Origin: Lysobacterales bacterium
GTDB taxonomy: Bacteria; Pseudomonadota; Gammaproteobacteria; Xanthomonadales; Xanthomonadaceae
Assembly: GCA_017302035.1 (NCBI GenBank)
Contig: JAFLEA010000016.1
Location: 1-51,604, forward strand
Length of the DNA: 51,604 bases
Direction of reading: 5' to 3'
A program made the position numbers and the translations under genes. Below the pieces are notes generated by a model that saw only the letters and a list, made by a program, of their open reading frames with translations, was not told the DNA's origin and did not search any database. Shown here piece after piece: positions 29,308-50,116 of this stretch (positions are counted from its first letter, which is position 1; each line of letters opens with the position of its first letter).

Positions 29308-29397
29308 GGAGAGGTGGCCGAGCGGTTTAAGGCACCGGTCTTGAAAACCGGCGTAGTGGCGACACTACCGTGGGTTCGAATCCCACTCTCTCCGCCA
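29308..29397 (+). tRNA. tRNA-Ser (anticodon UGA)
   Basis: A 90-base serine tRNA with encoded CCA. Acceptor GGAGAGG (29308-29314) pairs with TCTCTCC (29387-29393). The anticodon stem CCGGT/ACCGG surrounds the loop CTTGAAA, giving anticodon TGA at 29342-29344. A long variable arm (TAGTGGCGACACTA) and T-loop GTTCGAATC follow. It is the integration target of the island that begins just after it. Confidence 0.97.
29380..29397 (+). repeat. attL candidate (3' end of tRNA-Ser)
   Basis: ATCCCACTCTCTCCGCCA, the last 18 bases of the tRNA, recurs at 49324-49341 with one mismatch. The integrase gene starts 85 bases after it, the normal arrangement for tRNA-targeting elements. Confidence 0.75.
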
Positions 29398-29471: not shown

Positions 29472-29488
29472 GCGCATACCTTATGCGC
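29472..29488 (+). promoter_or_regulatory. Inverted repeat spanning the integrase 1 start codon
   Basis: GCGCAT (29472-29477) and ATGCGC (29483-29488) flank ACCTT. The second arm contains the start codon itself. TTGGCA at 29434 and TAGGAC at 29458 are a possible promoter pair (spacing 18). Confidence 0.4.
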
Positions 29489-30940
29489 ATTCCCCACTAT
29501 TTGACCCGTTCCCTGACCTCTGGACGGTGGTCGTTTCGCCAGCGTGTTCCCACCGACCTCCAGCGCGTGCTGGGGTGTCGCGTCATAAAACGGACGCTTC
29601 GCACGGGAGACCTTCCCGAGGCTAAGGTGCGCGCGGTGTGGCTGACGGCCGGTTATGCTCGTCTCTTCACACTGTTGAGGGACCAACGCGTGGACAAGCT
29701 GGGGAAGAAAGAGGCTGACGAGTTGGTTGCGCGACTGACCGCATCCAAGGATCTGCGGGATCTGACGCTGCACCGCAGCCGGGCGCCGGATGGGACCGTC
29801 ACAGAGCGCTGGCAGATGGACGACGAAAAAGACGTCCAACTGTTCCGCTCGATGCAAGAGATCTATGCAAAGGATCCCTTGCTCGAGGCCGTCCACACGC
29901 CGTTTCCGTCGCGGTCTTCGCCGGTGGCCAAGGCCGCCTTGGAGCCGTTGACCTTGGGCAAGGCCCGCGACGCTTGGCTGGCCACGCTGAAGGCCTCGAC
30001 GCTTCCCAAGACCTACACGATCAAGAAAACCGCTATTGAGTCATTGGTCCGCTTCCTAGGAGATAAGACCCAGCTCGCGACCATCCACCGGTCAGATCTG
30101 GCCAGGTGGTATCAGCACATGCGCCAAGAAGGCGCCTCCACACCCACGCTGACGAACAAACAAAGTTACGCAGGCGGGAAAGGGGGATTTTTTGATTGGG
30201 CGATGGCTTCGGGGTATTACCCCAAAGGGGATAACCCGGCCGCAGGGCACGTGAGCTATTCGACCCGTGAGAAGCGGTCGCGACGGAAGCTGGGCTTTAA
30301 GGCCTATGACCGGGAACAAATCCAAGCTCTATTCGCGCCTGAGGCCTTTGGGCATCTCTCGCATGCCGCGCGCTGGGCTGCACTGCTCGGTCTTTATACG
30401 GGCGCGCGGGCGTCGGAAGTCGGGCAGCTATTGGTGTCGGATGTGATCGAGGAAGAAGGCATCCTCTGCATCCGCATTTCAGACGAAGGGCCTCACCAGA
30501 AAGTGAAGACCGACGTCAGTCTTCGAACCGTGCCTGTCCACCCTGATCTCTTGGCATTGGGCTTCAAGGAGTGGGTGAACTCGCTAAAGGCGAAAGGCAG
30601 CAAGCGTCTCTTTCCAGCCGCGAAAGCGGATGCCAAGAATGGCCAGGGGAACTGGATTTCGAAGGCTTTCAGCCGCCACTTGGCGGTAGTAGGGAAGGGC
30701 TGGCCAGAGGCCAAGAGGGGCTTCCATTCCTTGCGAAAGACTTTCATCCAGGAGTTGCAGGGCGCTGGGGTCGTGTCCGAGTTGCGTGCGCAGATCGTTG
30801 GTCATGAGCTGGATGACGAGCACCACGGGACCTACAGTAGAGACTTCACGGTTGGTGAGAAGCTAAACGGATTGGGGTCTCATTCTCCCGGACTAGCAAT
30901 TCTTCGTTATCAATTGGAGTTGAGTAAGAAGCACGTCTGA
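29483..30940 (+). CDS. Tyrosine site-specific integrase (island integrase 1)
   Basis: A 485-residue integrase placed directly after attL. The N-terminal part (about 1-130) is DUF6538-like (MRIPHYLTRSLTSGRWSFRQ, then VPTDLQRVLG), followed by a SAM-like core-binding domain and the catalytic domain. Catalytic residues visible: Arg in LYTGARASEVGQL (near 308), HSLR in GFHSLRKTF (near 413), His in IVGHELDDEH, and the Tyr nucleophile in HGTYSRDF (near 450). There is no clear ribosome site. The ATG lies inside a small inverted repeat (29472-29488), which might hold translation low. Probably catalyses integration and excision at the tRNA-Ser site. Confidence 0.93.
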   Translation: MRIPHYLTRSLTSGRWSFRQRVPTDLQRVLGCRVIKRTLRTGDLPEAKVRAVWLTAGYARLFTLLRDQRVDKLGKKEADELVARLTASKDLRDLTLHRSRAPDGTVTERWQMDDEKDVQLFRSMQEIYAKDPLLEAVHTPFPSRSSPVAKAALEPLTLGKARDAWLATLKASTLPKTYTIKKTAIESLVRFLGDKTQLATIHRSDLARWYQHMRQEGASTPTLTNKQSYAGGKGGFFDWAMASGYYPKGDNPAAGHVSYSTREKRSRRKLGFKAYDREQIQALFAPEAFGHLSHAARWAALLGLYTGARASEVGQLLVSDVIEEEGILCIRISDEGPHQKVKTDVSLRTVPVHPDLLALGFKEWVNSLKAKGSKRLFPAAKADAKNGQGNWISKAFSRHLAVVGKGWPEAKRGFHSLRKTFIQELQGAGVVSELRAQIVGHELDDEHHGTYSRDFTVGEKLNGLGSHSPGLAILRYQLELSKKHV

Positions 30941-30994
30941 AAGAAATCGCGGGTCCAGCTTTTTGCATGGATTGAAATCTAGAGGGGGTATTCA

Positions 30995-32842
30995 ATGTGG
31001 ACCGATAACGAGACCGAACGCGATTTCCTGAACTTCTCTGGCGTGGCAGATACCATTGCCGAAATCATCGCGCAGGCTCAGGGCAAGCCGATTTCAATCG
31101 GCGTGTCCGGGCAATGGGGCAGGGGCAAGTCTTCGCTGATCAAACTGACACGAGCATCGTTGGCGGGTCGTTCTAAGAAGAGCGGTGATCGGGACTTTGT
31201 TTTCGTGGAGTTCAATGCGTGGCTTTATCAGGGCTATGACGATGCTCGGGCGGCATTGATGGACGTCATCGCCGAGAAGCTGCAGGAGGAAGCCGAAAAG
31301 CGGGGCAAGGGCAAGAGCAAGGTCCTGGAGTTCATCAAACGGATCAAGTGGTTTCGCGCAGCCAAGCTGGTAACTGGAGACGCCATTGCCTTGGCCTTGG
31401 GGCTGGCTCCAACCGGCCTGTTGGGCGGGCTCTGGCGCACGGCCAAAGGCATGGCCGATGGCGTGAGTCAAAAGGAGTTCGAGCAGGGTAAGGAGCAAGC
31501 CAAGGCAGCAGCCGACGAGGCAGGCTCCCTGCTGGGGCCTAAACCCGACGACTCCCCTCCTAAGGAAATTCAGGCGCTTCGCGATAGCTTTGAGGAAGCC
31601 CTAGAAGAGCTCGGTATCACGCTCGTCGTATTGATCGACGACTTGGACCGTTGCTTACCGCCCACCACCATCTCGACGCTCGAGGCTATCCGGCTCTTCC
31701 TGTTCTTAAAGAACACGGCGTTTGTGATCGCTGCCGATGATGGAATGATCAAGCACGCGGTGCGCAAGCATTTTGAGGGGCTTGAAGACGATACGCTGGT
31801 CACCAACTATTTCGACAAGCTGATTCAGGTGCCCATCCGTGTGCCCGCACTGGGGACGCAGGAAGTTCGTGCATACATGATGATGTTGTTCGTGGACAAC
31901 AGCGAGCTTGAAGCATCGGTCAAGGAGACTATCCACCAGAAGGTCGGAGAACGTCTCCGCCAGAGCTGGCTCGGAAAGCGCGTGGATCGTGCTTTCATCC
32001 AATCGCTGGAACTTGACCTTCCCCCTAGTTTGCTCGGGCAGCTGGACACAGCAGATCGGTTGGCGCCTTTGATGGTTGCCGCGTCGGACATTTCGGGCAA
32101 CCCGCGGCTCATTAAGCGGTTTCTCAACGCGCTTTCGATACGAATGACGATTTCGAAGGCTCAAGGAGTCGGCGTTGATGAGGCCGTTCTCGCTAAGTTG
32201 CTGCTGTTTGAGCGCTTGGGCGATCCAAAGGCTTACGGCCAACTCATTGCTTCGGTGAGCTCGCATGACAGTGGTCACCCAACGATCCTCGCGGAATGGG
32301 AGGAGAAGGCTGCCAGTGGTATTTCTGTTGAATTGGCTGCACCTTGGCAAGGGTCTTTCGTGCAAGAGTGGTTGACGTTGCCGCCTGCGTTAGCCAAAGA
32401 AGATCTTCGTGGCGCGCTATACGTTGGCCGGGAGCATGCGCCTCTGATCATGCCCGAAGACAGGCTGTCGTCAGACGCTGCGGACGTGTTGACTGGATTG
32501 CTGGCGAGCCCAGACATGGCGGGTGCACTGAAACCACGCTTGGCGGCCATCAGCCGTCCCGAGATTGCCATCATGATGGATCGCCTTTTGGATCGGGCTC
32601 GGCAGGAGCAACAGTGGGGCGTTCCAGAAATCTTGGAGGCTTGCTTGGTCGTTGGGGAGCACGATCCTGCCCAGGGGCTGCGTCTGGCGTCCTTCCTTCG
32701 TGATCGGCCGATCGCGCAAATCCAAGCCAGCATCGTGCCGAAGGTCGATGGCCAACCGTGGGCGGACAGTCTTTTCGAACACTGGCTCAAACAAGGGGTC
32801 GGTGGTCCAGCGAAGAAAGCAATCCAGCAAAGGACGAGCTGA
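30995..32842 (+). CDS. qatA: QatA, KAP-family P-loop NTPase
   Basis: First gene of a QatABCD anti-phage operon, 615 residues. The KAP NTPase has Walker A GQWGRGKSSL (residues 39-48), EFNAWLYQGYDDARAAL, and Walker B LVVLIDDLDRCLP near 208-221. A hydrophobic stretch (AIALALGLAPTGLLGGLW, about 129-146) sits between them, as in KAP proteins with inserted membrane segments. SGNPRLIKRFLNAL is the sensor-2-like arginine region. A strong GAGGGGG ribosome site precedes the ATG. It overlaps qatB by one base. The identification rests on motifs plus the exact gene order with qatB, a QueC-like and a TatD-like gene. Confidence 0.9.
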   Translation: MWTDNETERDFLNFSGVADTIAEIIAQAQGKPISIGVSGQWGRGKSSLIKLTRASLAGRSKKSGDRDFVFVEFNAWLYQGYDDARAALMDVIAEKLQEEAEKRGKGKSKVLEFIKRIKWFRAAKLVTGDAIALALGLAPTGLLGGLWRTAKGMADGVSQKEFEQGKEQAKAAADEAGSLLGPKPDDSPPKEIQALRDSFEEALEELGITLVVLIDDLDRCLPPTTISTLEAIRLFLFLKNTAFVIAADDGMIKHAVRKHFEGLEDDTLVTNYFDKLIQVPIRVPALGTQEVRAYMMMLFVDNSELEASVKETIHQKVGERLRQSWLGKRVDRAFIQSLELDLPPSLLGQLDTADRLAPLMVAASDISGNPRLIKRFLNALSIRMTISKAQGVGVDEAVLAKLLLFERLGDPKAYGQLIASVSSHDSGHPTILAEWEEKAASGISVELAAPWQGSFVQEWLTLPPALAKEDLRGALYVGREHAPLIMPEDRLSSDAADVLTGLLASPDMAGALKPRLAAISRPEIAIMMDRLLDRARQEQQWGVPEILEACLVVGEHDPAQGLRLASFLRDRPIAQIQASIVPKVDGQPWADSLFEHWLKQGVGGPAKKAIQQRTS

Positions 32843-33690
32843 TGGGAACCTCTCAGAGCAGTAAAGGGCCAGGGTCGGGCGTGCCGATGATTCCACCGTG
32901 GGCGGACGGCTCGGCGCCTGGCGGTCCACCTGGGGATGATCCTGGGCAGGGCGGACAACAAGGACAAGACGGACAGCCGGCTGAAACTCCCACGCCCACT
33001 CCCACCCCGACGGCACCACCGGGTAGGTGGGGGACGACCCGCAGGAACTTGGGGGACTACGCGCAAACCGGCGACAGCAGGTCGATGCGTAGGGCGCTGA
33101 AAGGATATGTGCGCAGCGGGTATGGAGGATCCGGCACAGCGTCTCGCCGGATGGGCAGCACAGCAACCACCGCAGGGACCCTGTCTACAGCTCTCAGCAG
33201 CTTGGCCGGAGGGGCGACGCCCGATCCCAGTGCGGTGTTGGATCGCGCTTTGCTGGTCGGACGCAACGCCGACGAGATCATGGATGCGATCGTCGAAGCC
33301 GTGCGGCCGGTGGATGGCACCCAAGATGCGGAAGCCTCACGAGCAGCGATTCGAGACGCTTTGTCCGAGCTCTTGGCGCGCTACGAGAACGCCAACCTGC
33401 TGCAGCTGACGGACGAGCAGCGGGAATTCGCGATTGAGCGTTTCACGGCAAACGACGTCGTTCGTCGGTTCGAGCTCGATACGGGCCAAGTCATCATCGA
33501 AAAGGCGCCTACCACTACCATGGGTTTGGCGAGGCTGAAGGAGATTCGCAGCTACATCAAGCAGGCGGTGTCAGCTTCTTTTCGGGCGTTAAAGCAGGCA
33601 GGTCGCCAACTGAATTCCGGCAGGGTCACCCAAGTGGTGAGGGACGCGCTACGGGAGACATTCACGGTGTTCGAGGAGTATGTATCTTGA
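32842..33690 (+). CDS. qatB: QatB
   Basis: A 282-residue protein of the Qat system. The first ~75 residues are low-complexity: Gly/Pro/Gln-rich, with a Pro-Thr run (PTPTPTPTAPPGRWG). The part RNLGDYAQTGDSRSMRRALKG followed by YGGSGTASRRMGSTATTAGT resembles QatB, and helices follow to the end. No catalytic motif is visible. Its ATG overlaps the qatA stop by one base, and its stop overlaps the qatC start by three. Biochemical role unknown; required in the described Qat system. Confidence 0.85.
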   Translation: MGTSQSSKGPGSGVPMIPPWADGSAPGGPPGDDPGQGGQQGQDGQPAETPTPTPTPTAPPGRWGTTRRNLGDYAQTGDSRSMRRALKGYVRSGYGGSGTASRRMGSTATTAGTLSTALSSLAGGATPDPSAVLDRALLVGRNADEIMDAIVEAVRPVDGTQDAEASRAAIRDALSELLARYENANLLQLTDEQREFAIERFTANDVVRRFELDTGQVIIEKAPTTTMGLARLKEIRSYIKQAVSASFRALKQAGRQLNSGRVTQVVRDALRETFTVFEEYVS

Positions 33691-34964
33691 AGATCTTCTG
33701 TGCACCGAAGGGCTGTCCGGTCCCGCAAGGCCACGATCTAGAGGTTCTGCTCTACGGCCAGCGCAACCGGTCTAATGATCGCCAGGGCAGTGCGGGAGAA
33801 GCCGTGCAGCGGGAAATCTTCCGCGCTGGACTACTGCCGGATCAACGCGCCTGGGACTTACTCTCGTTGGCATTGGCGGTGGTGACGGCAGACGTCTCGG
33901 TGACGCGCAGTGACAGCCCGGATGGGTGGACGCGCCAGATAGATCTGGTCGTTGCCGTTTCGGATCCGGGCTTCTGGTCCACCCAATCCGATGCCATCCA
34001 AGCAATGCTGGGCTTTCTGTCCACGGATCGCTGGAACATCAGTTTTGTTGAAGGTGGGCACACACCCAGAGCACCATCGAAGTTGGTTCGCCCCAAGGAA
34101 GACTGCGTCGTGTTGCTCTCCGGGGGACTGGACAGCTTGGTCGGTGCGATCGACTTGGTGGAAGAGGGCTATTCGCCCATGGCTGTGAGCAATGTGGTCC
34201 GAGGCGATGCGGACAATCAGAACGTGTTCGCTGAGCGTATCGGTGGAGGCCTTAAACACTTAGCTCTCAATCACAACGCTACCCCACCGTGGGACAAGGA
34301 AGATTCACAGCGTGCTCGATCCATCATCTTTTTAGCATTCGCCGTTGTCGCGGCAACCACGCTCGAGCGCTATCACGAAGGCGAGGAAGTTCCCGTGTTT
34401 GTCTGCGAGAACGGATTCATCGCCCTTAATCCATCTCTCACCCACACACGGTTGGGCAGCCTGAGCACCCGCACGGCGCATCCGGAGTTCTTGAGCCGGC
34501 TGCGCGATCTTCTGGCCGTAGCGGGCCTGAGAATTCAGCTGGAGAACCCTTACGAAGACAAGACGAAGGGTCAGATGTTGAATGAATGCAAGGATCAAGC
34601 CTTGTTGGAAGAACTTGCTCTATCTTCCGTCAGTTGTGGCCGCTACCGCGTGTTTGGTTACCAGCATTGCGGGCGCTGCGTTCCTTGTCAGGTCCGTCGG
34701 GCGGCCATCAATGCGTGGGAGCACGTGGACGGCACGGGCTACAAGTTCAAGAAACTGGGTAAGAAGGACACCGATCACGCGAAGTTCGATGACGTAAGAT
34801 CCGTCGCCATGGCCATTGCCGAAGTGAAGGCAGATGGGATCGATGCTTGGCTCTCTTCCTCCTTGTCGTATCCGCGGATGGGGGGCAGGGCACCACGCCG
34901 AGCGCTCGTGCAGCGCGGGCTCGCTGAGCTTGAGAGCCTGCACGCCGTGCTTGGTGTGACGTGA
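33687..34964 (+). CDS. qatC: QatC, QueC-like PP-loop protein
   Basis: A 425-residue QueC-like enzyme. The PP-loop ATP motif SGGLDS is at residues 145-150. Four cysteines near the end (C317, C328, C331, C334 in CGRYRVFGYQHCGRCVPC) would bind zinc, as in QueC, which makes the 7-cyano-7-deazaguanine nucleobase. An N-terminal ~135-residue extension absent from QueC is typical of the defence version. The start is TTG (TTGA overlap with the qatB stop), the only start that keeps the coupling. It overlaps qatD by four bases. Possibly modifies a protein or nucleic acid during phage defence. Confidence 0.9.
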   Translation: MKIFCAPKGCPVPQGHDLEVLLYGQRNRSNDRQGSAGEAVQREIFRAGLLPDQRAWDLLSLALAVVTADVSVTRSDSPDGWTRQIDLVVAVSDPGFWSTQSDAIQAMLGFLSTDRWNISFVEGGHTPRAPSKLVRPKEDCVVLLSGGLDSLVGAIDLVEEGYSPMAVSNVVRGDADNQNVFAERIGGGLKHLALNHNATPPWDKEDSQRARSIIFLAFAVVAATTLERYHEGEEVPVFVCENGFIALNPSLTHTRLGSLSTRTAHPEFLSRLRDLLAVAGLRIQLENPYEDKTKGQMLNECKDQALLEELALSSVSCGRYRVFGYQHCGRCVPCQVRRAAINAWEHVDGTGYKFKKLGKKDTDHAKFDDVRSVAMAIAEVKADGIDAWLSSSLSYPRMGGRAPRRALVQRGLAELESLHAVLGVT

Positions 34965-35698
34965 TCGACTTTCATTGCCACTTGGATCTGTATCCGGATC
35001 CGCAAGCGGTCGCCGCGGCGTGCCAGGAGCGGGGCCTCTACGTCCTGTCGGTCACCACCACGCCATCGGCTTGGAATGGCACCTCGGCCTTGGCGTTGGG
35101 CAAGAGCCGTATCAGAACCGCCTTGGGGCTTCATCCCCAAGTGGCCCATCTGCGCAAGTCGGAGCTGCCGCTCTTCGAGAAGTTGGTGGGGCAGACGCGC
35201 TACGTGGGCGAGATTGGGTTGGATGGGGCGCCTGAGTTCAAGCCCCACTGGAATGACCAAATGGAAGTCTTCGAGCGAATCCTTACAGCCTGCTCCAACG
35301 CGCAGGGCAAGATTCTCTCGTTACATAGCCGCCGCGCGAGCAAAGACGTTCTGAGTCGTCTGGCAGAGCATCCGAGGGCTGGAATTCCAATCCTTCATTG
35401 GTTCAGCGGCACGGCGAAAGAGGTCGACAGGGCCGTTGAGCAGGGGTGCTGGTTCAGTGTGGGCCCGGCGATGTTAAGCAGCTCGAAAGGTCGCTCCCTA
35501 GTGGAACGTATGCCGCACGATCGCATCCTGACTGAGTCAGACGGTCCATTTGCGCAGCTAGAAGGACGTTCCATCTTGCCCTGGGAGGCTTCCTGGGCCG
35601 TGCTCGGTTTAAGTGACGCGTGGGCGGTGCCTCCGGCGGAAGTGGAGCAGCGACTTGCCCAAAATCTTGCGCGCCTAGGCTCCGCTTCTCTAGGCTAA
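34961..35698 (+). CDS. qatD: QatD, TatD-family metal-dependent nuclease
   Basis: A 245-residue TatD-like protein and last gene of the Qat operon. All metal ligands are in place: H5 and H7 (DFHCHLD), E84 (GEIGLDG), H122 (LHSRRA), H146 (HWFSG) and D194 (TESDGPF). TatD proteins are 3'-5' DNA exonucleases, so this is the likely nuclease effector. The GTG start overlaps the qatC stop (GTGA). Four consecutive 1-4 base overlaps bind the operon into one translational unit. Confidence 0.92.
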   Translation: MIDFHCHLDLYPDPQAVAAACQERGLYVLSVTTTPSAWNGTSALALGKSRIRTALGLHPQVAHLRKSELPLFEKLVGQTRYVGEIGLDGAPEFKPHWNDQMEVFERILTACSNAQGKILSLHSRRASKDVLSRLAEHPRAGIPILHWFSGTAKEVDRAVEQGCWFSVGPAMLSSSKGRSLVERMPHDRILTESDGPFAQLEGRSILPWEASWAVLGLSDAWAVPPAEVEQRLAQNLARLGSASLG

Positions 35699-35796
35699 GA
35701 TTGGGATGGTCAGCCTTCGGCTCGCTTCTTTGCTGCTCGACTCTTGAGTGAGTAGCCGCTGGCTTACTGGCGCTAAACAGTGCCCAGACCCCGCTC

Positions 35797-35825
35797 TTGC
35801 AAAACGAAATTTGCAAGGCTATAGT
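35797..35825 (+). promoter_or_regulatory. Promoter with embedded operator for the XRE-ImmA gene; leaderless
   Basis: TTGCAA (35797-35802) and TATAGT (35820-35825) are exactly 17 bases apart. TTGCAAA (35797-35803) and TTTGCAA (35810-35816) form a perfect inverted repeat with a six-base centre, covering the -35 and spacer. The ATG at 35832 is six bases after the -10, so transcription should start at or next to the start codon. The likely binder is the encoded XRE protein (autorepression). Confidence 0.65.
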
Positions 35826-35831
35826 GTTCGT

Positions 35832-36983
35832 ATGACTGCTCATGCATCCGTCCCTGACCCGGCCAAAGCGCTGGGCGCACGCCTTTCTTTCGCTCGCGAT
35901 GCCGCCGGTCTCACGCAGGAGAAGTTGAGCGCAATGCTCGGTTTTTCCGATCGCCAGACATTGTCGAGCATCGAAAACGGGCAGCGCCGCATCCAGCCCG
36001 ATGAGTTGGAAAAGATAAGCCAGGTCGTGGGTAAGCCCGTTGACTGGTTCTTGGATCCGTTTGTAATCGCTGGCGAAGGCGCGTTTTCTTGGCGTGTTAG
36101 CCCCTCTTTAGCCAAGGAAGACTTGGATGCGTTTGAGTCTCGGACAGGCAAGTGGATTGGGCTATTGCGGTTTCTGAAATCAAGCATGGGGACGCAAGAG
36201 CGCCTTCTTGCTGAAAGTTTGGAAGTCGACGCGAACATGCGTTTTGAAGAAGTTTGCGCGATGGGTGAACGCGTTGGAAAAATGTTGGATTTGGGCGCCA
36301 TTCCTGCCGAGCGCTTGGTTGAGAGAATTGAAGAACGGCTAGATATACCAGTGCTGTATTTTGATGGACATGCGGCAGCGGGTGATATCTCTGGTGCGAT
36401 GTGCAAGATGCGAAACTTTCGCGCAATTCTGATCAATCGGTCGGAACCTCGAGCAAGACGGAGTTTCGATGCGGCGCACGAGTTGTTTCATGCCCTGACT
36501 TGGTATGTTCTCACGCCAGAGCATCGCGAGAGTTCGGAGCCAACCGATGATTCAAGCAGGCTGACGGGGTCAAAAAAGAAGGCGCTACGTATCGAGCGAT
36601 TGGCTGATAATTTTGCCGCCGGCCTCTTGATGCCGAGAAGCAGTCTTGAGCGGGTAGTCGAGCCGGCTCGTGCTGGCGATATTGATCACTTGGTGGAGGT
36701 GGCTCACTTGTTGCAGGTTTCTTATGCCTCGCTCGCATTTCGCCTGTTTAATGCAGGGATGATTGAGCGAGACACCTGCGTGGCGTTGAAGGCTAAGCGT
36801 GGCATTCGCAATCAAGATCCGCGTCCGAAGCCTTTTTCCATGACTTTTGTTAAGTTGTTGGCATCCGGAATTGATGATGGTCATGTGTCTGCGCGTAGAG
36901 CTGCAGGTGCATTGGGTATGACGTTGCCGCAACTGGTTCAATTGTTCGAGCAATACGACTTCCATCCACCTTTTGATGTTTGA
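35832..36983 (+). CDS. XRE-ImmA/IrrE protein (HTH plus zinc peptidase)
   Basis: A 383-residue protein. The N-terminal XRE helix-turn-helix covers about residues 11-72 (LGARLSFARDAAGLTQEKLS, SIENGQRRI). A C-terminal ImmA/IrrE (DUF955) domain holds the zinc site HELFH at 216-220 and a second part, ADNFAAGLLMPRS, that supplies the third ligand region. Such proteins are antitoxins, or anti-repressor proteases that cleave a repressor in response to a signal. Codon use is strikingly AT-rich compared with neighbours, pointing to recent transfer. The PIN-like gene starts at or just after its stop. Confidence 0.9.
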   Translation: MTAHASVPDPAKALGARLSFARDAAGLTQEKLSAMLGFSDRQTLSSIENGQRRIQPDELEKISQVVGKPVDWFLDPFVIAGEGAFSWRVSPSLAKEDLDAFESRTGKWIGLLRFLKSSMGTQERLLAESLEVDANMRFEEVCAMGERVGKMLDLGAIPAERLVERIEERLDIPVLYFDGHAAAGDISGAMCKMRNFRAILINRSEPRARRSFDAAHELFHALTWYVLTPEHRESSEPTDDSSRLTGSKKKALRIERLADNFAAGLLMPRSSLERVVEPARAGDIDHLVEVAHLLQVSYASLAFRLFNAGMIERDTCVALKAKRGIRNQDPRPKPFSMTFVKLLASGIDDGHVSARRAAGALGMTLPQLVQLFEQYDFHPPFDV

Positions 36984-37505
36984 GTGGCACGGATGCCCAA
37001 GACTCGAGTTTTTGTCGATACTTGCATCATCATTGAAGCATTCCAAACCAGCACTTGGTCAAGTTTGTGTGAGCGATACGATGTCGAGACCGTGGAGAAA
37101 TGCGTTGAGGAGTGCTCGACTGGTGACGTGACATTGCCAGATCGGGCAAACATTCCCGAGGCGCGTTTACGGGCTGATTTGGCGAAGATCCATGCGGTAT
37201 CCACGAAAGATTTGATGGCGCTCACCGAGATCGCCGGCCTGCCAGTTATTGACGAGGGCGAGCGCCATCTGATGGCATGGCTTTATGCCAATCGGCCGAA
37301 GAATGTAGCTGTGCTTGTATCAACTTCAGACCGGGCGGCTGTTCGCGCTGCACATGTTCTACGGTTGTTAGACCAAGTTCGTTCCTTGGAATTTCTTTTA
37401 AAGAACGCGGGCGTGAGCCCAAAAAAGATCGAAAAACTGCGTAAGCATTTCTTGGACGAGTGGATGATTCAGGCGCGCACGCGCATCGTCATGAACGTGC
37501 TTTGA
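36984..37505 (+). CDS. PIN-like domain protein, candidate toxin
   Basis: A protein of about 173 residues with the outline of a PIN ribonuclease. FVDTCIIIEAF carries the first acidic residue (D9 counted from the ATG at 36993). E40 in the next helix, DEGERHLMAW near 87-96 and LVSTSDRAAVRAA (D113) give the remaining acids. The GTG at 36984 follows the XRE-ImmA stop directly, and ATG at 36993 is an alternative. Pairing with an XRE-ImmA gene suggests a toxin-antitoxin or regulated-effector pair. AT-rich like its partner. Confidence 0.65.
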   Translation: MARMPKTRVFVDTCIIIEAFQTSTWSSLCERYDVETVEKCVEECSTGDVTLPDRANIPEARLRADLAKIHAVSTKDLMALTEIAGLPVIDEGERHLMAWLYANRPKNVAVLVSTSDRAAVRAAHVLRLLDQVRSLEFLLKNAGVSPKKIEKLRKHFLDEWMIQARTRIVMNVL

Positions 37506-40225: not shown

Positions 40226-40882
40226 CTAGATCTTTAGCGTCTTCCTTGCGATAGCTCTATACCACGGGTCGATCTCCGCCTCGCTCATTTCAAACGGAAC
40301 AATCTCTAACGGGCTTGAGCGAGTGATTCGCCAGATTGATCGCCTCGGTATGTTGCGAAGATGCCAATAGTCGCTGGTCCCGGCGGATGGCTCTAAGACG
40401 AAGAAGATATCGTGCGATCGAGGTGCCTTGCCGTGGCCCGGAAAGAGATCCGCACAACAAAGAAGAACATAAGGAGTATAACCAGGATTGAAGCCTCTAA
40501 AGCTCCAGATGTCGTGGTCATTGGCGCGCTCGAGGAGAGCCAGGAGCTCTTTCCATGTCAGACCAGGGCACAGATGTCGACATCGTTCATAGATGCTTTC
40601 AAGATGTTGAAAAGTATATTCTTTCAAGCGTCTTGCATCGTCTTGGCTGCCGCGCGCAACTCTTGTGAAGATGTCGAAGGGTTTGGAATTCTCAGGCAAC
40701 GTGGGGCAATTCGATCCTCGATGATGCGCAAAGTGCGGCGTTACTTGAGTTGAAAGAGCCCCGCGAACCAGCACTTCTTCGCCGCAAACGGGGCACGTGG
40801 CCTTGTTATTACGGTTGTGGATTAGCCAGTCTTCAATTCGAATCAGGGGTGCACTAGATCCGCTCCTCAGCGCAACTTTCAT
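40226..40882 (-). CDS. CoiA-like zinc-site protein, unknown function
   Basis: A 218-residue protein. Near the N-terminus a CoiA-type signature is visible: CPVCGEEVLVRG, then TPHFAHHRGSNC, i.e. CxxC...HFAH...C. CoiA-like proteins include nuclease-like competence and phage-defence proteins. No clear PD-(D/E)XK core is recognisable behind it; the C-terminal half has SHDIFFVLEPS and RRSIWRITRS. A TTG start at 40900 gives six more residues and is possible. It stands alone. Confidence 0.55.
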   Translation of the reverse strand: MKVALRSGSSAPLIRIEDWLIHNRNNKATCPVCGEEVLVRGALSTQVTPHFAHHRGSNCPTLPENSKPFDIFTRVARGSQDDARRLKEYTFQHLESIYERCRHLCPGLTWKELLALLERANDHDIWSFRGFNPGYTPYVLLCCADLFPGHGKAPRSHDIFFVLEPSAGTSDYWHLRNIPRRSIWRITRSSPLEIVPFEMSEAEIDPWYRAIARKTLKI

Positions 40883-40950
40883 CGTGGGCTGCTCACTCAA
40901 CTGATGTTGAGCGATTCTACGCGCTCAGCCTGAGCGCGTGGAGAGTATCT

Positions 40951-41253: not shown

Positions 41254-42654
41254 TCAGGGGAAGAACTTCTTTGGATCCATGAGCAGCTTGGCGAACTGAC
41301 CCCGCTGGTAAACCGGTAACTCAACTTTGGGCTGATAGAGCTCCAGCGCTTTGAGCTGCTTGGCGCGGGTAACCGACGGTCGCTTGTGCAGGTAGTGCCG
41401 GCGCAGGACTTCGACCCGGTCGCGCTGATCGCTGGTATGACCGGTGACCAACGCGATCTCCCTCTCCGGCACGTCCTGAACGTCGAGTTCGGTGGCCAGT
41501 GTGTGGCGGAAGGCATGGAATCCGATCCCTTTGGGGAAACCCAACGCCTTTAGGTAGCGCCCGAAGTCCACACCGAGTTGCTGGCTGTAACGTGCGTTCG
41601 TCTCTCCGGTCTTGCGGTTTACGCCCGCGGAAAGATGAGGAAATAGGCGAGGGTGGCCCGTGGCCTTCATGTCCTCGATGAAATCCAGGAAGCCCGCATC
41701 CAATAGTGGCTGGGCGATCGGCACCACGCGCATGCACCCTTTGCCCTTCATGCTTTGCCGGCTTTGACGTTGGCGCTTGGGGTCAGCAGCAAGATCCGCA
41801 TCGATGGTCTTTCGGAAAGCGAGACACCAGGTTCCTCGTTCCTGAAGGATGTCGATGAGCTTGAGCTGGCAGACCTCATTGATTCGGGCGCCGGTATACA
41901 GGCCGATCATAGGCGCCCACCACAGGTGCGGCTTCTTGGCCCACGGAATGAAGGTCTGCGGATTGAAGATGGCCTGGATCTCATCGTCCTCGAACAGTCG
42001 GATCGCCTTGTTCGGATCGATGGTGTAGTCCGGCTCAGGCTTCTTGAACGCGTCCATAGGTGAGGACGGAATGGCGCGACCGCGCACCAGGTGATTGAAG
42101 AAGGCGACCAGGAAGCGGCGATGACGTTCCTCGGTCGCAGGTGCCAGTGGCGGCACTTCCTGCTGCTTCCCGAGAGCGATGGCTTTCTGGAAAGACAGTG
42201 AACGAAGGAGGGGATCCGAAACCAAGTTCTTCGGTGCCCAGCGAAGCAGCTTCCAGAGTTCGTGGATGTGTTTGTAGTCGATGCGCGCGACGGAGATGTT
42301 TCCGCACGTCAGCAGGAGCATCTTAAGCGTGCGCTGCGTAGCGTCCACCGTCTTGGGGTCCAACTTACGCCGCCGCATGTCATCCAAGTGGTCATCAATT
42401 TCGTTCGCCAAGGGGCGAGCGGGAGTGCCCATGGGCAGGGGCTCTGGATACCGGGTTCCACCTTTCAGAGCCTTCTTCCGGCCGCTCTCGTCGAGGGCGG
42501 CCAAGATGCATTCTTGAAGATTGATGGCAGCTTCCCTGCCGTGGACGATGGCCTTGCTGATGCGAAAGCGCCCGACTTTGAGTCCCTCGAGTTGAAGGGT
42601 GCCGGCTGGAGCAGCAATGTAGTGGTTCAGAGCGGAGGAGAGCGATTGGTTCAT
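41254..42654 (-). CDS. Tyrosine site-specific integrase (island integrase 2)
   Basis: A 466-residue integrase unrelated in detail to integrase 1. Catalytic residues: Arg in LYTGARINEVCQL (near 255), HAFR in GFHAFRHTLATEL (near 380), His in LVTGHTSDQRD, and Tyr in RHYLHK (near 418). The core-binding domain lies near 85-185. The GGAAG ribosome site is inside the 3' arm of a hairpin (42661-42681). It may drive a separate element now nested in the island, or be a remnant of a second insertion; no second att pair was found by eye. Confidence 0.92.
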   Translation of the reverse strand: MNQSLSSALNHYIAAPAGTLQLEGLKVGRFRISKAIVHGREAAINLQECILAALDESGRKKALKGGTRYPEPLPMGTPARPLANEIDDHLDDMRRRKLDPKTVDATQRTLKMLLLTCGNISVARIDYKHIHELWKLLRWAPKNLVSDPLLRSLSFQKAIALGKQQEVPPLAPATEERHRRFLVAFFNHLVRGRAIPSSPMDAFKKPEPDYTIDPNKAIRLFEDDEIQAIFNPQTFIPWAKKPHLWWAPMIGLYTGARINEVCQLKLIDILQERGTWCLAFRKTIDADLAADPKRQRQSRQSMKGKGCMRVVPIAQPLLDAGFLDFIEDMKATGHPRLFPHLSAGVNRKTGETNARYSQQLGVDFGRYLKALGFPKGIGFHAFRHTLATELDVQDVPEREIALVTGHTSDQRDRVEVLRRHYLHKRPSVTRAKQLKALELYQPKVELPVYQRGQFAKLLMDPKKFFP

Positions 42655-43251: not shown

Positions 43252-43431
43252 CGCAGTCACCAGAAGACTTTCCCAGAGCCTCATTTCGCTGCTAGTAGAA
43301 GACGTGATGTGCCCCCCAAAAATGGCGCGGTCAGCAGAGGAGGGCGGCCGAATGTAGACTGGGCCTTCGACAGGGGACGTTCTCGACCCGATTGCACGGG
43401 AGGGATCGCGCAGGGACGAAGGGAGGGGGGC

Positions 43432-44733
43432 ATGAGCGTCATCGCTTATCGTGGTGGAAAACCGATTTCGGACGAGGTTGAGTTCCAAGCGTATCTCGCG
43501 TCTCTCCTGAGATTGGAGAACGTGGGCCTGCTGCTGGGGGCCGGGGCGTCTTGCTCTGCTGGTGGACAGATAATGAGGGCTCTGTGGACCAGCTTCTTGG
43601 CGAAAAATGCGGCTGAGGCGGAATGGCTCTTCTCCCAAAAGTTCATCACAGAAGACGAGAAGAGGTTGCCGGCGCCTCCTCTTCCTGCGCTGCCTCCGGG
43701 CGCTGTGCCGATCCCACCCAATCCATTTATGGCGGCTCCGGTTGCAAGGCTGCCGAGCTTCGAAGTCCTTCTAGACAAGCTCGAGATCGCAATCCTTGAG
43801 TTGGAACGGCAAGGCAGCCAGGAACTAGCCCAAGCGCAGAAGGTGAGGACGGCCCTCTTTAGAGCCGTTGTAAGCGCCGCTAAGCTGAAGGAGGAATGGT
43901 GGACATCTCCGCTAGGCGCTGACCTAGCGCACGAGCTAGGGGCTCATCGGTCGATTCTTCAGAAGCTCACCGCCGCCCGACAGCCCGGCCAGCCGGCTCC
44001 TTGGGTTTTTACGACCAACTATGACCTGGCCATCGAATGGGCCGCGGAGTCGGTGGATCTTCAGGTCATCAATGGTTTCCTCGGTGTCCATAGCCGCCGG
44101 TTCTCACCTCAAAGTTTTGACCTCGGGTTTCGCAACGCTCAAGCCAAGGGTGAAGCCCGTTTTGGCGTCTACAACATCTACCTGGCAAAGCTCCACGGGT
44201 CACTGACATGGAAGGAGGTGGACCACAGCCTGTATGAGGTTCCGGCCTCCGAGGCATGGCGAGACCTAGATGAGTTTCTTACCGGCTTTGAAGAAACTTT
44301 GAGCTATCTGGTTCTTCCTCGTGCAGCCAAGTATCTACAGACCGTTGGGTATGTCATGGGCGAACTGCTGCGACGGTTCGCGGAGTTCATGGCCCGCCCG
44401 CAAACCGCCCTCATCATCAATGGCTATGGGTTCGGCGATGAGCACATCAACCGGCTCATCCGGTCCGCTTTGCTCAACCCGACGCTTCAAGTGGTCGTGT
44501 ATCTCCCCGAGTTCAACGGCGACCCCACCGCTGCCACGCTCCCGCAGACGGTGCGGAGACTGCTCTCCTTGCAATCCCCGCGCCTTACCATCGTCGGAGG
44601 CGGTAGCAGGGCCTATACCAGTGCATTGGCGGACGACCTCCCTGACCCCACTGTCTACGATCAGGAACTGGCGGACTTGCGAAGGCGACTGATGCCTGAG
44701 AAGCCTGACGCGGAGGAGGACGACGATCTATGA
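43432..44733 (+). CDS. SIR2-domain protein of a SIR2-HerA defence system
   Basis: A 433-residue protein. The NAD-binding SIR2 motifs are GAGAS (36-40, in LLLGAGASCSAGG), FTTNYDLAIEW with N196 and D198, and H255 in KLHGSLTW. INGYGFGDEHINRLI near 365 is the C-terminal signature of SIR2 defence proteins. Residues about 80-105 form a Pro-rich insert. A strong GGGAGGGGGG ribosome site precedes ATG 43432; the frame upstream to 43309 is rejected. In the described systems this protein cleaves NAD+ (or DNA) when activated with HerA. Its stop overlaps the HerA start (ATGA). Confidence 0.9.
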   Translation: MSVIAYRGGKPISDEVEFQAYLASLLRLENVGLLLGAGASCSAGGQIMRALWTSFLAKNAAEAEWLFSQKFITEDEKRLPAPPLPALPPGAVPIPPNPFMAAPVARLPSFEVLLDKLEIAILELERQGSQELAQAQKVRTALFRAVVSAAKLKEEWWTSPLGADLAHELGAHRSILQKLTAARQPGQPAPWVFTTNYDLAIEWAAESVDLQVINGFLGVHSRRFSPQSFDLGFRNAQAKGEARFGVYNIYLAKLHGSLTWKEVDHSLYEVPASEAWRDLDEFLTGFEETLSYLVLPRAAKYLQTVGYVMGELLRRFAEFMARPQTALIINGYGFGDEHINRLIRSALLNPTLQVVVYLPEFNGDPTAATLPQTVRRLLSLQSPRLTIVGGGSRAYTSALADDLPDPTVYDQELADLRRRLMPEKPDAEEDDDL

Positions 44734-46517
44734 GGAGCCGGCAGGCCATCGGCTACGTTGTCCAGATCGACGGCGTGGACATCACGCTGAACCTGATGGA
44801 TGTCCACCGCGGCCAGTTGGCTGCCCACGCCCATGGTGTCTCGGTTGTCACTGAAGTCGGGAGTCTTCTTGGGATCGAGTCAGGGGGCCGCGTGCTGGTG
44901 ATGAAGGTTCAGTCCTTATCGTTCGCCGAGCCTAAAGAGGTCCACCGGTTTGGGCTATCAGGAACCTCGGTCGCTTCTGAGCCATTGCGTCATCTCACTG
45001 GTCTAGTGGTCGGACGACTGAGGCGAGACCAGGGCGCACTGTCTTTCGTATCTGATTCGCTTTCTTCCCCAGCGCTGGGTGCTGAGGCCTACCCACTCAC
45101 AGACGAAGAGCTGACTTCAATCCTGGGTGGGTCTGTCACCTCGCCGGCAGACATTCACTTGGGTGACGACCTCCGAGGTGGAGGCCGGCTGATGGTAGAC
45201 CTCGAGAGCTTAGTTTCCAGGCACGTCGCGGTCCTCGGGAGCTCGGGTCAGGGCAAGAGCTGCTTTACAGCTGCGGTGCTCCAGCAGGTCGTCAAGATGC
45301 CGAAGGCGAGAGTGGTAATCTTCGACATCAACGGTGAATACGAGGACGCTTTCCCAGTTTCCGACTATCCCCCGGGTGCCATCAAGGTCACCCGCATAGG
45401 CGGGTCAGACCCCAATAGCTACCGCATCCCTTACTACGCTTTGGGTCGCTTGGGATTGCAACGCCTGCTGTTGCCCAGCGACAAAACTCAGCGGCCTGCG
45501 CTCACATTTGCCCTGGACCATTTGAACAAGGTCAAGTGGTTCTCTGGAACTGGTGGTGCGGGCTTGGCAACAGATCCGCAAGCCTCACTCTTCGATGACT
45601 GTCGGAGCGACCGAGTCCTCGAGGCTCAGGCCATCATCGGTAAGCTGCGGACTGGATTAGTGCCGCTAGCGGCCTCATGGCCACCCATGCAGGCCCTTGG
45701 TCCTCTGATTGCGGATAGCCATGCGATTGCCCCGGCGCGAGGCACCTTCGAACGCAATGCCTGGAACTACGGAAATGTCGCGCCATTGATTACCCGAATC
45801 GCGAGATTCGTGGACGACGACATGTTCAAGGATGTTGTAAGCATAGACGGCGGGGCAGGGTGTGGTGGCCCCCTCAGTTGGCGCAACGAAGCCAAAGCAG
45901 TTGTGGAGCGACTGTTCGGCGGAGATGAGGTCGACTGGCGAGTGCACATCGTTGACCTACGCCGGGTGTCGCACGATTTGACGCCGTTTGTTTTGGGGGC
46001 GGTGCTGGAGCTCTACGCGTTCGAGCTCTTTAGTCGCGGGCAGGAGAACAAGCGAGAGACTCTGCTGGTGCTTGAGGAAGCGCATCACTACCTCCGGCAA
46101 ATGGGGACTGGCGATGAAGCTGTGAACAACGCTCTAGCCTACGAGCGTTTAGCAAAGGAAGGGCGAAAGTTTGGGTTGGCCCTGTGGCTCAGCACCCAAC
46201 GACCATCAGAGATATCTCCGACCGTGCTCTCTCAGTGCAATACTTGGGTCTCTTTTCGGCTTTCCTCGGAGAAGGATCTGTCTGCCATCCAGTCTGCGAG
46301 CGAGTGGGCCGATAGGCGTGAGGTGCGAAGGATTGCTGGGCTCGCCCGTCAAAACGCTTTGGCCTTCGGGGGAAGCCTGCAGATGGCAACGCTGATTAAG
46401 GCCCCGACGGCTGACCCTCTCCCTCGTTCCGAAGACGGCCGCTTCAACAGTTGGGCGTCCGACATGAGCGAGGAAGATCAAGAGGAAGACGATTTTGATA
46501 TCAGTGACTACCTGTGA
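44730..46517 (+). CDS. herA: HerA-family ATPase of a SIR2-HerA defence system
   Basis: A 595-residue HerA/FtsK-type hexameric ATPase. An N-terminal HAS-barrel-like region (about 5-80) precedes Walker A GSSGQGKS (170-177), VVIFDINGEYEDAF, Walker B TLLVLEEAHHYL (near 443-454) and LWLSTQRPSEISP, the sensor region typical of HerA. The C-terminus is acidic (EEDQEEDDFDISDYL). It overlaps the SIR2 gene by four bases. HerA normally works with NurA nuclease; with SIR2 as neighbour and no NurA present, the defence pairing is clear. It has no archaeal-type NurA partner in the window. Confidence 0.92.
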   Translation: MRSRQAIGYVVQIDGVDITLNLMDVHRGQLAAHAHGVSVVTEVGSLLGIESGGRVLVMKVQSLSFAEPKEVHRFGLSGTSVASEPLRHLTGLVVGRLRRDQGALSFVSDSLSSPALGAEAYPLTDEELTSILGGSVTSPADIHLGDDLRGGGRLMVDLESLVSRHVAVLGSSGQGKSCFTAAVLQQVVKMPKARVVIFDINGEYEDAFPVSDYPPGAIKVTRIGGSDPNSYRIPYYALGRLGLQRLLLPSDKTQRPALTFALDHLNKVKWFSGTGGAGLATDPQASLFDDCRSDRVLEAQAIIGKLRTGLVPLAASWPPMQALGPLIADSHAIAPARGTFERNAWNYGNVAPLITRIARFVDDDMFKDVVSIDGGAGCGGPLSWRNEAKAVVERLFGGDEVDWRVHIVDLRRVSHDLTPFVLGAVLELYAFELFSRGQENKRETLLVLEEAHHYLRQMGTGDEAVNNALAYERLAKEGRKFGLALWLSTQRPSEISPTVLSQCNTWVSFRLSSEKDLSAIQSASEWADRREVRRIAGLARQNALAFGGSLQMATLIKAPTADPLPRSEDGRFNSWASDMSEEDQEEDDFDISDYL

Positions 46518-47015: not shown

Positions 47016-47098
47016 TCGCCCCTGGAACCCCAAGCCGCGTGCGGCTTGCGAAAATCAGAAGCCGAGGCATAAAGAGCAGAGCACGAACAGGAGCTCTG

Positions 47099-48661
47099 AT
47101 GGCCATCTACCACGCCCGCATCAAGACCTTTAGCCGAGCCAAAGGTCACTCTTCCGTCGCTGCAGCGGCGTATCGAGCTGGCCTGCTACTCGTCGACGAG
47201 AGGACAGGATCCCGTCATGACTACCGTCGGCGGGGCGGCGTTGTCGAGACTCGCTGCGTGGTCCCGACCGATGCGCCGGATTGGTCGATGGTTCCCGATC
47301 AGCTCTGGTCTGCGGCCGAGCATGCGGAACGGCGCAGGGATGCAACCGTCTGCCGCGAGTTCGAGCTCGCTCTCCCTCACGAGCTCACCGATGACCAGCG
47401 GTCTGCCTTGGCCGCCGAGCTCACCCGAGCTTTGGTGGAGCGCTATCGGTTCGCCGCGCAGGCAAGCATCCATTCGCCCGACGCCAAGGGTGGGCTGAAC
47501 TGGCACGTCCACATTCTCGCAACTACCCGTCGCCTGGACGCCGATGGGTTGAGCGACAAGACCAGGGAGCTCGACGGTGGTCCGACCGGCCGATCTTAGG
47601 TGGAGTGGATTCGGGAAATGGTCGCTCGAGTGACCAACGCCCACCTCGCAGCGGCGGAGATCCCCGCTCAGATCGATCACCGCAGCCTTGAAGCGCAGGC
47701 CGCCGCCGCCTTAGCACGGGGAGATGTCGTGTCCGCGGCGCTGCTGGAGCGCCAGCCCACTAAGCACGTTGGTAAGAACGCTTCCGCATTGTCCCGGCGT
47801 GGCGAGGACACCGAGCGCGCGGAGAACAACTCGGTCATCCAACGGGAGAACGAAGAACAGTTCCAGAGCCTTCTCGCGGCCTTCGAGCGTGAGGGAAGGG
47901 CGCTGCCGCCTTCTCACGACCGTCGCCCCAGTCAGGGGCGTGCCGCTCGATCGAGAGGCCAAAGCATTGATTTGATGCTATCGGACGGAAGTCACATGGT
48001 TGGCGTGCAGGGGTTCGCCGGCATGGCCATCGGAGGAATCGTCGTTCCGGCCCGGGGACCTGGGCCCTCAACGCAAGATTTGTTCGGGGAAGCAGTTCAG
48101 GTGTGGATGGACGGCGCCCTGGAGCCGTTGCTTGAGGTTCTAAAGGACTCGCGCCGCTTCCTAGAGGATCACGCGAGACGCCTTGCAGCCTTTGCGGATA
48201 GTCGCAGCTTGCGCGCTGACCTCCGAGAGCTGATCAAGAGATTGAAGACGTTGCGACGTTGGGCGACGGAATGGAAACGCCGGAGGCTGGCCGAGCGCAG
48301 CGCGCTAAAGTTGCTCCATCTGGCGGAGCACGCCCTGGAGCAGTTCGTCGAATCCAGTCCGAGACCAACGGATGGCACGGAGCGAGAATGGGCCAAACGG
48401 CGGGGGCGCCGCTTGGCCGCCATTGAGAAACGACTGGCTTCCTTGAAAACCGCAAGGGAGGCCGTGTCTCCAGGCGCCGAGGAGGAGTGCGAGAAAAGGC
48501 TTTCCGGCGCAGTGGATCACGTGGAAGCGTGGAGCAGCCAACTGCTCAAGAACTACCCGCTGGAGTCCGATTCGCTGCCCCCGGCCTCCGGGCCAGTCGA
48601 CAGCGCGAAGCTGAGGGCTGAAGCGACAAGGCCGCCGCCCCCCAAACCGCGGCTGCATTGA
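47099..48661 (+). pseudogene. MobA/MobL relaxase interrupted by an in-frame amber codon
   Basis: A 520-codon frame for a MobA/MobL-type relaxase split by TAG at 47597-47599. The first part (166 residues, MAIYHARIKTFSRAKGHSSV) has the catalytic-domain motifs: Tyr25 in AAAAYRAG and the His pair in NWHVHILAT (H136, H138). The second part continues without shift in the same frame (VEWIREMVARVTNAHL, DHRSLEAQAAAALARGD) through a long helical C-terminus. Removing one base change (GAG to TAG) restores the full protein. The gene is otherwise undamaged. oriT lies just upstream. Probably inactive unless the amber codon is suppressed. Confidence 0.85.
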
Positions 48662-49039: not shown

Positions 49040-49468
49040 GGTTGCTCCGGTTGCGGGGGAAGGAACTGGCAGCCAAGCAGCATTTACGAATTGCGCAAGT
49101 TCGCGCACCGGAATTACTTCACACAATTGATTATCGGCGTCAAAAAAGTGTCGCGTTCACCAAGATGGTGCGGCGGACGTAGGGGTGACTCGACGGTAAC
49201 TGCATGTAGCTATCGGCTTGATCCGACACCCCGTCCTGCCACTAGAATCCTCGGACACAAACCAGGAGACCCCGCCAAGCGGGTCTTGCAGTCAATTCAA
49301 GCGGTTAGGTGGAAGCTGCCTCCATCCCACCCTCTCCGCCACCCAGGCCGCCTCGTCCGCCACCGGCGTGGGATTATTCCTACGCCATTCTCAGGAATCT
49401 TCCCGCTTGTCTCCAAGCCACCGCAGGTCTAGTCTCCAGCGGCTAGGGGCATACGGGGGGGTATTGCC
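49040..49468. other. Right-end intergenic region with attR and the response-regulator promoter
   Basis: No gene is supported. It contains a stem AGACCC/GGGTCT near 49270-49289, the attR candidate at 49324-49341, and a promoter candidate TTGTCT (49407-49412) / TAGTCT (49430-49435), spacing 17, upstream of the regulator gene. Confidence 0.5.
49324..49341 (+). repeat. attR candidate
   Basis: ATCCCACCCTCTCCGCCA matches the last 18 bases of tRNA-Ser at 17 positions, in the same direction. It lies where the sequence returns to the high-GC core. Confidence 0.7.
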
Positions 49469-50116
49469 ATGACCATCCGGGTTTTCATGGTCGACGACCA
49501 CGCGCTGGTTCGTGCCGGCCTGCGCATGATCCTGTCGGCGGAGACCGACATCGAGATCGTCGGCGAGGCCGAGAGCGGCGAGGCGGGGTTGCCGCTGATC
49601 CGCAAGCTCAAGCCGGATGTGGTCCTGTGCGACCTGCACCTGCCGGGCATCAGCGGCCTGGAAATCACCGAGCGCATCGTCCGCGGCAAGCTGGAATGCC
49701 GGGTGGTGATCGTCTCGGTGCTGGAGGAGGGGCCGTTGCCCAAGCGCCTGCTCGACGTCGGCGCGCACGCCTACGTGGGCAAGGGCGGGGACGCGCGCGA
49801 GTTGTTGCATGCAGTGCGGGACGCGGCGCGCGGCAAGCGTTACCTGGGCAGCAGCGTGGCGCAGAACATGGCGCTGGCCAGCGTCAGCGGCGGCGACTCG
49901 CCGTTCGATCAGCTTTCCCCGCGTGAACTGGAAGTGGCGATGCTGCTGGTCCAGGGACTGCGCCAGGACGCGATCGCAAAGCGCCTGAGCCTGAGCGCCA
50001 AGACCATCAACACGCACAAGTCGCGACTGTTCGAGAAGATCGGCGTGCACGACAGCATCGCCCTGGCGCGACTGGCCACGCGCTACGGGTTGATGGATCC
50101 GGGCAGCACGCTCTAG
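49469..50116 (+). CDS. LuxR-family response regulator, GacA/UvrY-like
   Basis: A 215-residue response regulator. The receiver domain has the acidic pocket VDDH (D9, D10), phospho-acceptor D55 in LCDLHLPG and K105 in AYVGKGGD. The LuxR helix-turn-helix lies near residues 147-200 (LSPRELEVAMLLVQGLRQDA, SAKTINTHKSRLFEKI). Length and domain order fit GacA/UvrY, and its neighbourhood to rne is known for Xanthomonadaceae. No histidine kinase is nearby, as is usual for GacS/GacA. Assigned with moderate confidence to GacA. Confidence 0.85.
   Translation: MTIRVFMVDDHALVRAGLRMILSAETDIEIVGEAESGEAGLPLIRKLKPDVVLCDLHLPGISGLEITERIVRGKLECRVVIVSVLEEGPLPKRLLDVGAHAYVGKGGDARELLHAVRDAARGKRYLGSSVAQNMALASVSGGDSPFDQLSPRELEVAMLLVQGLRQDAIAKRLSLSAKTINTHKSRLFEKIGVHDSIALARLATRYGLMDPGSTL

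Follow-up and report, generated by a model that had tools for sequence, protein, structure and literature searches.

A complete qatABCD operon in the tRNA-Ser island of a Lysobacterales genome and the donor question of QatC

The window, a 51,604-nt stretch of DNA from a Lysobacterales bacterium (GCA_017302035.1, contig JAFLEA010000016.1, positions 1–51,604), carries at 30995–35698 four genes that are identified as qatABCD, the operon of the anti-phage system Qat, from gene content, gene order, profile matches, solved QatB and QatC homologues and sequence motifs. The operon is the first cargo of a mobile island integrated at a tRNA-Ser gene, and the stop codon of island integrase 1 lies 54 nt before qatA, in agreement with an earlier note on this DNA that had placed the operon directly after that integrase. 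The genes and their matches (PADLOC and Pfam as E-values, NCBIfam in bits) are as follows.

30995..32842, forward strand: qatA, ATG start, 615 amino acids (aa); PADLOC QatA 6.9e-138, Pfam KAP_NTPase 1e-64, NCBIfam QatA 448.6
32842..33690, forward strand: qatB, ATG start, 282 aa; PADLOC 6.8e-42, NCBIfam 144.5 against a cut-off of 100
33687..34964, forward strand: qatC, TTG start, 425 aa, QueC-like; PADLOC 3.3e-99, NCBIfam 322 against a cut-off of 280
34961..35698, forward strand: qatD, GTG start, 245 aa, TatD-family nuclease; PADLOC 1.4e-93, NCBIfam 343.7 against a cut-off of 230, Pfam TatD_DNase 7e-46

All four Qat components, the KAP NTPase QatA together with QatB, QatC and QatD, are present on a single strand in the order A-B-C-D, with overlaps of 1 nt between qatA and qatB and of 4 nt at both the qatB/qatC and qatC/qatD junctions, which bears out the complete operon of four overlapping cistrons that had been proposed. 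PADLOC names all four, and because of its E-values a chance origin of the assignment is no issue. None of the four frames is interrupted, and the overlaps and tested motifs are preserved. For qatC, TTG is the sole ATG, GTG or TTG start within 60 nt of the qatB stop, and it is credible because the blastp alignment with the nearest relatives (locus L003) begins at residue 1; the GTG start of qatD likewise provides its 4-nt overlap with qatC. The further proposal that the TTG start preserves coupling holds insofar as this start is credible and yields the overlap, but the arrangement is not special, since a 4-nt-overlap start of qatC on the qatB stop, as ATG, GTG or TTG, is found in 25 of 30 loci, the window included.

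The active-site residues named in the earlier note are in place, namely the Walker A lysine K45 of QatA and D194 within the TESDGPF motif of QatD. Together with the Walker B residues D215/D216, K45 is invariant in 15 of 15 aligned QatA sequences. QatB begins with MGTS, followed by a Gly/Pro/Gln/Thr-rich tail, probably disordered as judged by composition only, and then by a conserved core that matches solved chains in phmmer (9vll_A, 1.1e-17; 9zee_A, 1.3e-14). QatC carries SGGLDS at 145–150, the Qat-specific STRT at 260–263 and the zinc cysteines C317, C328, C331 and C334, matches solved QatC 9zee_B at 2.5e-53, and has the N- and C-terminal extensions by length and alignment. In QatD, the TatD motifs FHCHLD, EIGLD, LSLHSR and ILHWF, which we take to hold metal ligands, accompany TESDGPF.

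These junctions and motifs are typical of the relatives. The junction comparison comprises 31 loci (the window, a second copy in the same genome and 29 relatives, with L003 and L004 as near-duplicates), of which 30 have qatB, L015 being without it. A QatB start of the form M/V/L-G-T-S is available in 30/30 of these, qatA overlaps that start by 1 nt in 18/30, and a 4-nt-overlap start of qatD on qatC occurs in 24/30. Among further loci with a full QatC (L052–L058), qatB is present in six of seven and begins with MGTS in 6/6. All 37 aligned QatC keep SGGxDS, ST[RK]T and the zinc cysteines; the QatC alignment and tree omit L004 as a near-duplicate, L015 (qatA and qatB not found), L018 (truncated qatC), and L034 (genome G131; stop inside qatC), and the tree also omits the solved QatC chains; L005, which shows signs of decay in qatB and at the end of qatC, is retained. 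QatC-like proteins for which qatABD were not detected (L031–L033, L035–L038 and L059–L064) are left out of the Qat counts.

The nearest relatives found are the qatABCD operons of Xanthomonas (L003, X. arboricola; L004, X. euvesicatoria), which share the gene order at 67% (QatA), 57% (QatB), 59% (QatC) and 64% (QatD) identity but have ATG for qatC and TTG for qatD as 4-nt-overlap starts, where the window has TTG and GTG. With the solved Qat proteins of P. aeruginosa and E. coli (9zee, 9zef, 9vlk, 9vll; PMC13279940), the window has in common the MGTS start, the QueC core, SGGxDS, the threonine pair and the zinc cysteines; the solved QatC chains are longer (465–466 residues, perhaps including tags), and their first zinc cysteine is followed by an insert that the 425-aa window QatC lacks. 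A similar insert is present in QatC of the other qatABCD operon of this genome (G000, contig C38; L051, 7116–12061), which has the same four genes with an MGTS QatB. An integrase-like gene, situated immediately beyond a guaA-like gene, is found about 2.7 kb away, both genes being recognised by eye. This second copy is only distantly related to the window operon, with 36, 26, 39 and 40% identity over the aligned parts of QatA, QatB, QatC and QatD and a separate branch on the QatC tree, and its QatC (544 bits) exceeds the NCBIfam cut-off. A genome with two Qat systems so far apart lends itself to asking whether QatB/QatC pairs can be exchanged.

The mechanism can be approached through published Qat systems. 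In P. aeruginosa Qat, a 1:1 complex of QatB with QatC is sufficient for defence against some phages, and work on the P. aeruginosa and E. coli systems finds the QatC ATP site, the QatC threonine pair and QatB Gly2 essential, with ATP binding shown; QatA is a DNA-binding protein that assembles into heptamers or octamers, and QatA and QatD alter the phage range, mutants of either retaining some protection (PMC13279940). QatC has been proposed to catalyse carboxydeazaguanylation of QatB (PMC13329287). In the most likely mechanism, QatB would lose its initiator methionine, so that its flexible tail begins with an exposed Gly2 and enters the active site of the QatC bound 1:1 to QatB; with ATP, QatC would then couple an acyl-type group to the QatB N-terminus and so arm QatB, while QatA, a KAP NTPase and probable ring, and the nuclease QatD would widen the range of phages stopped. 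The window carries those sequence features of this QatBC scheme that could be checked. We infer that its copy works like published Qat and that a covalent modification occurs. As residues to change, QatB Gly2 and the QatC ATP site would be more telling than K45 and D194, because in P. aeruginosa QatBC by itself stops some phages and part of the protection survives in QatA or QatD mutants (PMC13279940).

Whether QatC needs 7-carboxy-7-deazaguanine (CDG) made by the host, as the QueC-family enzyme Cap9 does, can be examined in host genomes, since a QatC using host-made CDG would be expected in hosts with QueD and QueE and usually QueC. The profiles used were QueC with its cut-off, PTPS for QueD, and TIGR04349 plus TIGR04508 for QueE. 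Among 389 alphaproteobacterial genomes, QatC exceeds its cut-off in nine and QueC in 158, while some QueC match exists in 375, the rest being mostly weak. QueC is over the cut-off in 4/9 genomes with QatC (G418, G473, G602 and G035) and in 154/380 without it, giving Fisher p = 1 with genomes treated as independent, although they are not. In the other five QatC genomes (G099, G453, G632, G689 and G723), the best weak QueC matches range from 1.7e-4 to 3.5e-7, PTPS gives no match, TIGR04349 gives none or at most 24 bits and TIGR04508 none; with TIGR04508, G035, G418 and G473 exceed 350 bits. G632, G723, G099 and G453, with completeness estimated at 96–100%, carry complete, open qatABCD with an MGTS QatB; G689 is not counted here, since its stretch yielded QatC alone. 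A fifth case is Kaistia terrae (L009, genome G402), with complete qatABCD, QueC at no more than 31 bits, no PTPS match, and 20.9 bits for one QueE model and none for the other. G723 belongs to the window's clade (QatA 69%, QatB 58%, QatC 58% and QatD 62% identity), which helps to make the donor question testable. On a quick QatC tree the five cases are scattered, and QueC presence changes at least eight times when two metagenome-assembled genomes and G689 are counted as QueC-negative. The QueC-negative metagenome-assembled genomes G407, G408 and G413 are not among the five, one of them, G413, being positive for PTPS. The test covers searched genomes and hence not the copies of D. radiodurans and Enterococcus, whose chromosomes were not searched.

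Profile detection is imperfect. Of the genomes with QueC, G602 and G405 lack both PTPS and a QueE-level match, G418 lacks PTPS although QueE is found, and G346 lacks a QueE-level match although PTPS is found. In addition, Tgt occurs in 12/12 genomes tested, so salvaged 7-deazaguanines may be present. To our knowledge, no salvage of CDG has been described. An operon may also lie idle in a host unable to feed it. With these reservations, and with moderate confidence, the genome comparison suggests that host-made CDG is probably not an obligatory donor for QatC.

Taken together, it is very likely that 30995–35698 is a qatABCD anti-phage operon, the first cargo of its island, that works by the QatBC scheme, with the donor left open. 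Several points weigh against this. PMC13279940, in the part available, leaves the reaction of QatC unresolved, QatC activity not having been reconstituted and no QatB modification demonstrated. The window QatA falls 151 bits short of the NCBIfam equivalog cut-off of 600, and its model (predicted local distance difference test 77, predicted template modelling score 0.57) gives weak Foldseek scores against the Protein Data Bank, the best being RADAR RdrA rings (E 3.7e-05, template modelling score at most 0.35) with other AAA+ proteins such as ORC and Apaf-1 close behind. The RdrA-ring matches, though weak, fit the QatA heptamer or octamer of PMC13279940 and count in favour as a hint; by sequence, QatA has no match among solved structures at E up to 0.01. 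A further point against is that a simple sigma-70 scan of 30850–35900 finds no promoter-like site upstream of qatA. The low QatA score is what could favour a different, uncharacterised defence operon merely resembling Qat, but this is extremely improbable: QatB, QatC and QatD pass NCBIfam, QatB and QatC match solved Qat chains, and the quick QatC tree places the window QatC with the RefSeq-named QatC of the D. radiodurans and R. tropici plasmids. The QatA cut-off itself looks narrow, because six of seven further QatA scanned also stay below it (L003, L009, L021 and L077–L079, 387–453 bits), the second copy passing with 938; in the gene tables of the two plasmids, likewise, qatB, qatC and qatD are named and QatA is a generic P-loop protein. 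The search with Qat profile models suggested in the earlier note returns all four proteins in PADLOC and three in NCBIfam, QatA remaining under (449 of 600). An inactive passenger of the island is somewhat easier to entertain, the sole sigma-70-like site in the scanned region (0.8 expected there by chance) lying downstream of qatD, but is still improbable; the scan is weak evidence in a high-GC host, and the open frames, overlaps and motifs of the window contrast with decayed-looking copies elsewhere, such as L005 (short qatB, no qatD) and L034 (short qatB, stop inside qatC).

A narrower question, nested within the QatBC scheme so that the likelihoods of the two do not sum to one, is whether QatC behaves just as Cap9 does in type IV cyclic-oligonucleotide-based anti-phage signalling systems (CBASS), Cap9 being a QueC-family enzyme that acts on the N-terminal Gly of a partner, as QatC would (PMC13279940; PMC11996544). 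The two share the fold, SGGxDS and a partner with an N-terminal MG motif, PMC13329287 calls the QatC reaction carboxydeazaguanylation, and the genome of the window's host scores 196 bits for QueC, 370 for QueE and 132 for PTPS. QueC is moreover over its cut-off in nine of ten genomes with QatC over cut-off in a Pseudomonadota-wide sample of 397, the window's own included, and in 15 of 19 genomes of another set, so most QatC hosts could supply CDG. Against an identical donor, the Tyr/Asp pair that recognises CDG in QueC and Cap9 is Thr/Thr in the window QatC (within STRT 260–263; residue roles from PMC13279940) and in 37/37 aligned QatC, five complete operons sit in genomes where QueC over cut-off, PTPS and a QueE-level match are all missing, and alphaproteobacterial QatC is distributed independently of QueC. 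A Cap9-like donor is regarded as rather unlikely, while the chances are evenly balanced that QatC does without host-made CDG, its QueC-family chemistry having switched to a donor common to every host. In that event, Qat would modify protein N-termini by a chemistry of its own and would not count as a second system of deazaguanylation.

The operon itself reads as an ordinary, well-formed and intact-looking member of a known anti-phage system, to which the locus adds one such copy. What is new is the host-genome test of the CDG need of QatC and the five complete operons found in genomes with no detectable CDG pathway; no comparison of QatC with CDG-pathway co-occurrence was found in the available portions of PMC13279940 and PMC13329287.

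The island that carries the operon is delimited by the following features.

29308..29397, forward strand: tRNA-Ser(TGA), the island target, its 3' end being the left attachment site (ARAGORN; empty site in L084 and L085)
29483..30940, forward strand: tyrosine integrase with DUF6538 and Phage_integrase, island integrase 1 (Pfam)
49324..49341, forward strand: imperfect copy of the tRNA-Ser 3' end with 1 mismatch in 18 nt, probable right attachment site (pattern search)

The attachment-site search used a 20-nt pattern with 3 mismatches, for which 0.01 matches are expected per shuffle; a search for direct repeats of at least 18 nt gave four families, none of which is a copy of the tRNA end. Loci round the homologue of a response regulator (window 49469–50116) were compared in seven relatives of the same genus. 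In L084 and L085, the gene left of the tRNA (LysR-type by eye), tRNA-Ser and the right-hand flank adjoin, with gaps of 140 and 81 bp from the tRNA to the right-hand match, so that the site is empty; L086–L088 have about 1.0–1.4 kb between the tRNA and the right-hand flank, and L082 and L083 show no tRNA on the stretch examined. From the empty site in L084 and L085, it follows that about 20 kb is inserted (29398 to about 49341). Across the island, guanine plus cytosine content falls from about 70% to 52–67%.

Directly after qatD, at 35832–37505, lie an XRE-ImmA/IrrE gene and an abutting 173-aa gene, which looks PIN-like by eye (VDTCIIIEA) and has no match above the Pfam cut-off. Both were considered as parts of Qat and rejected, with no blastp match in the Qat loci L003–L021 over flanks of up to 7 kb, including those of Xanthomonas (7 kb on each side of L003, about 2 kb downstream in L004). 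The island also holds a CoiA_N-like protein (40226–40900, minus strand), a second tyrosine integrase (41254–42654, minus strand) and, at 43309–46517, a SIR2 and HerA anti-phage pair over the NCBIfam cut-offs (SIR2_antiphage 617 bits, HerA_antiphage 886 bits). A MobA/MobL match at 47039–48661 spans two abutting open reading frames in the same frame (6.7e-39, and 2.4e-05, just under the cut-off), and an in-frame stop appears to split this region. Among the ten island proteins scanned with PADLOC and Pfam, a part of the island's reading frames, no match to a CD-NTase, the partner gene in type IV CBASS, was found.

In L077 (D. radiodurans R1 plasmid CP1, 4160–4995), the body of QatB as annotated is not in frame with the MGTS tail, and the copy looks broken in that record although qatABCD is present. 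In L078 (R. tropici CIAT 899 plasmid b, 4117–4408), the annotated QatB is about 290 nt too short, and an MGTS start lies in frame directly against the end of qatA. L080, from plasmid pY3-1 of the lactic acid bacterium Enterococcus lactis, has qatC and qatD named, preceded by a P-loop NTPase and an unnamed gene. Two further groups of QatC-like proteins were encountered. In L031–L033, L035, L059 and L060, frames of 621–686 aa overlap an upstream frame of 265–305 aa, with no qatABD by blastp. A distant QatC-like protein in L036–L038 and L061–L064 (frames of 460–537 aa, with S[ED]GMDS in both sequences inspected, qatABD not detected) is preceded by a frame of 195–212 aa and followed by an HExxH-bearing frame in all seven loci, and possibly represents another QueC-derived system; the HExxH frame of L036–L038 matches the window's XRE-ImmA protein by blastp.

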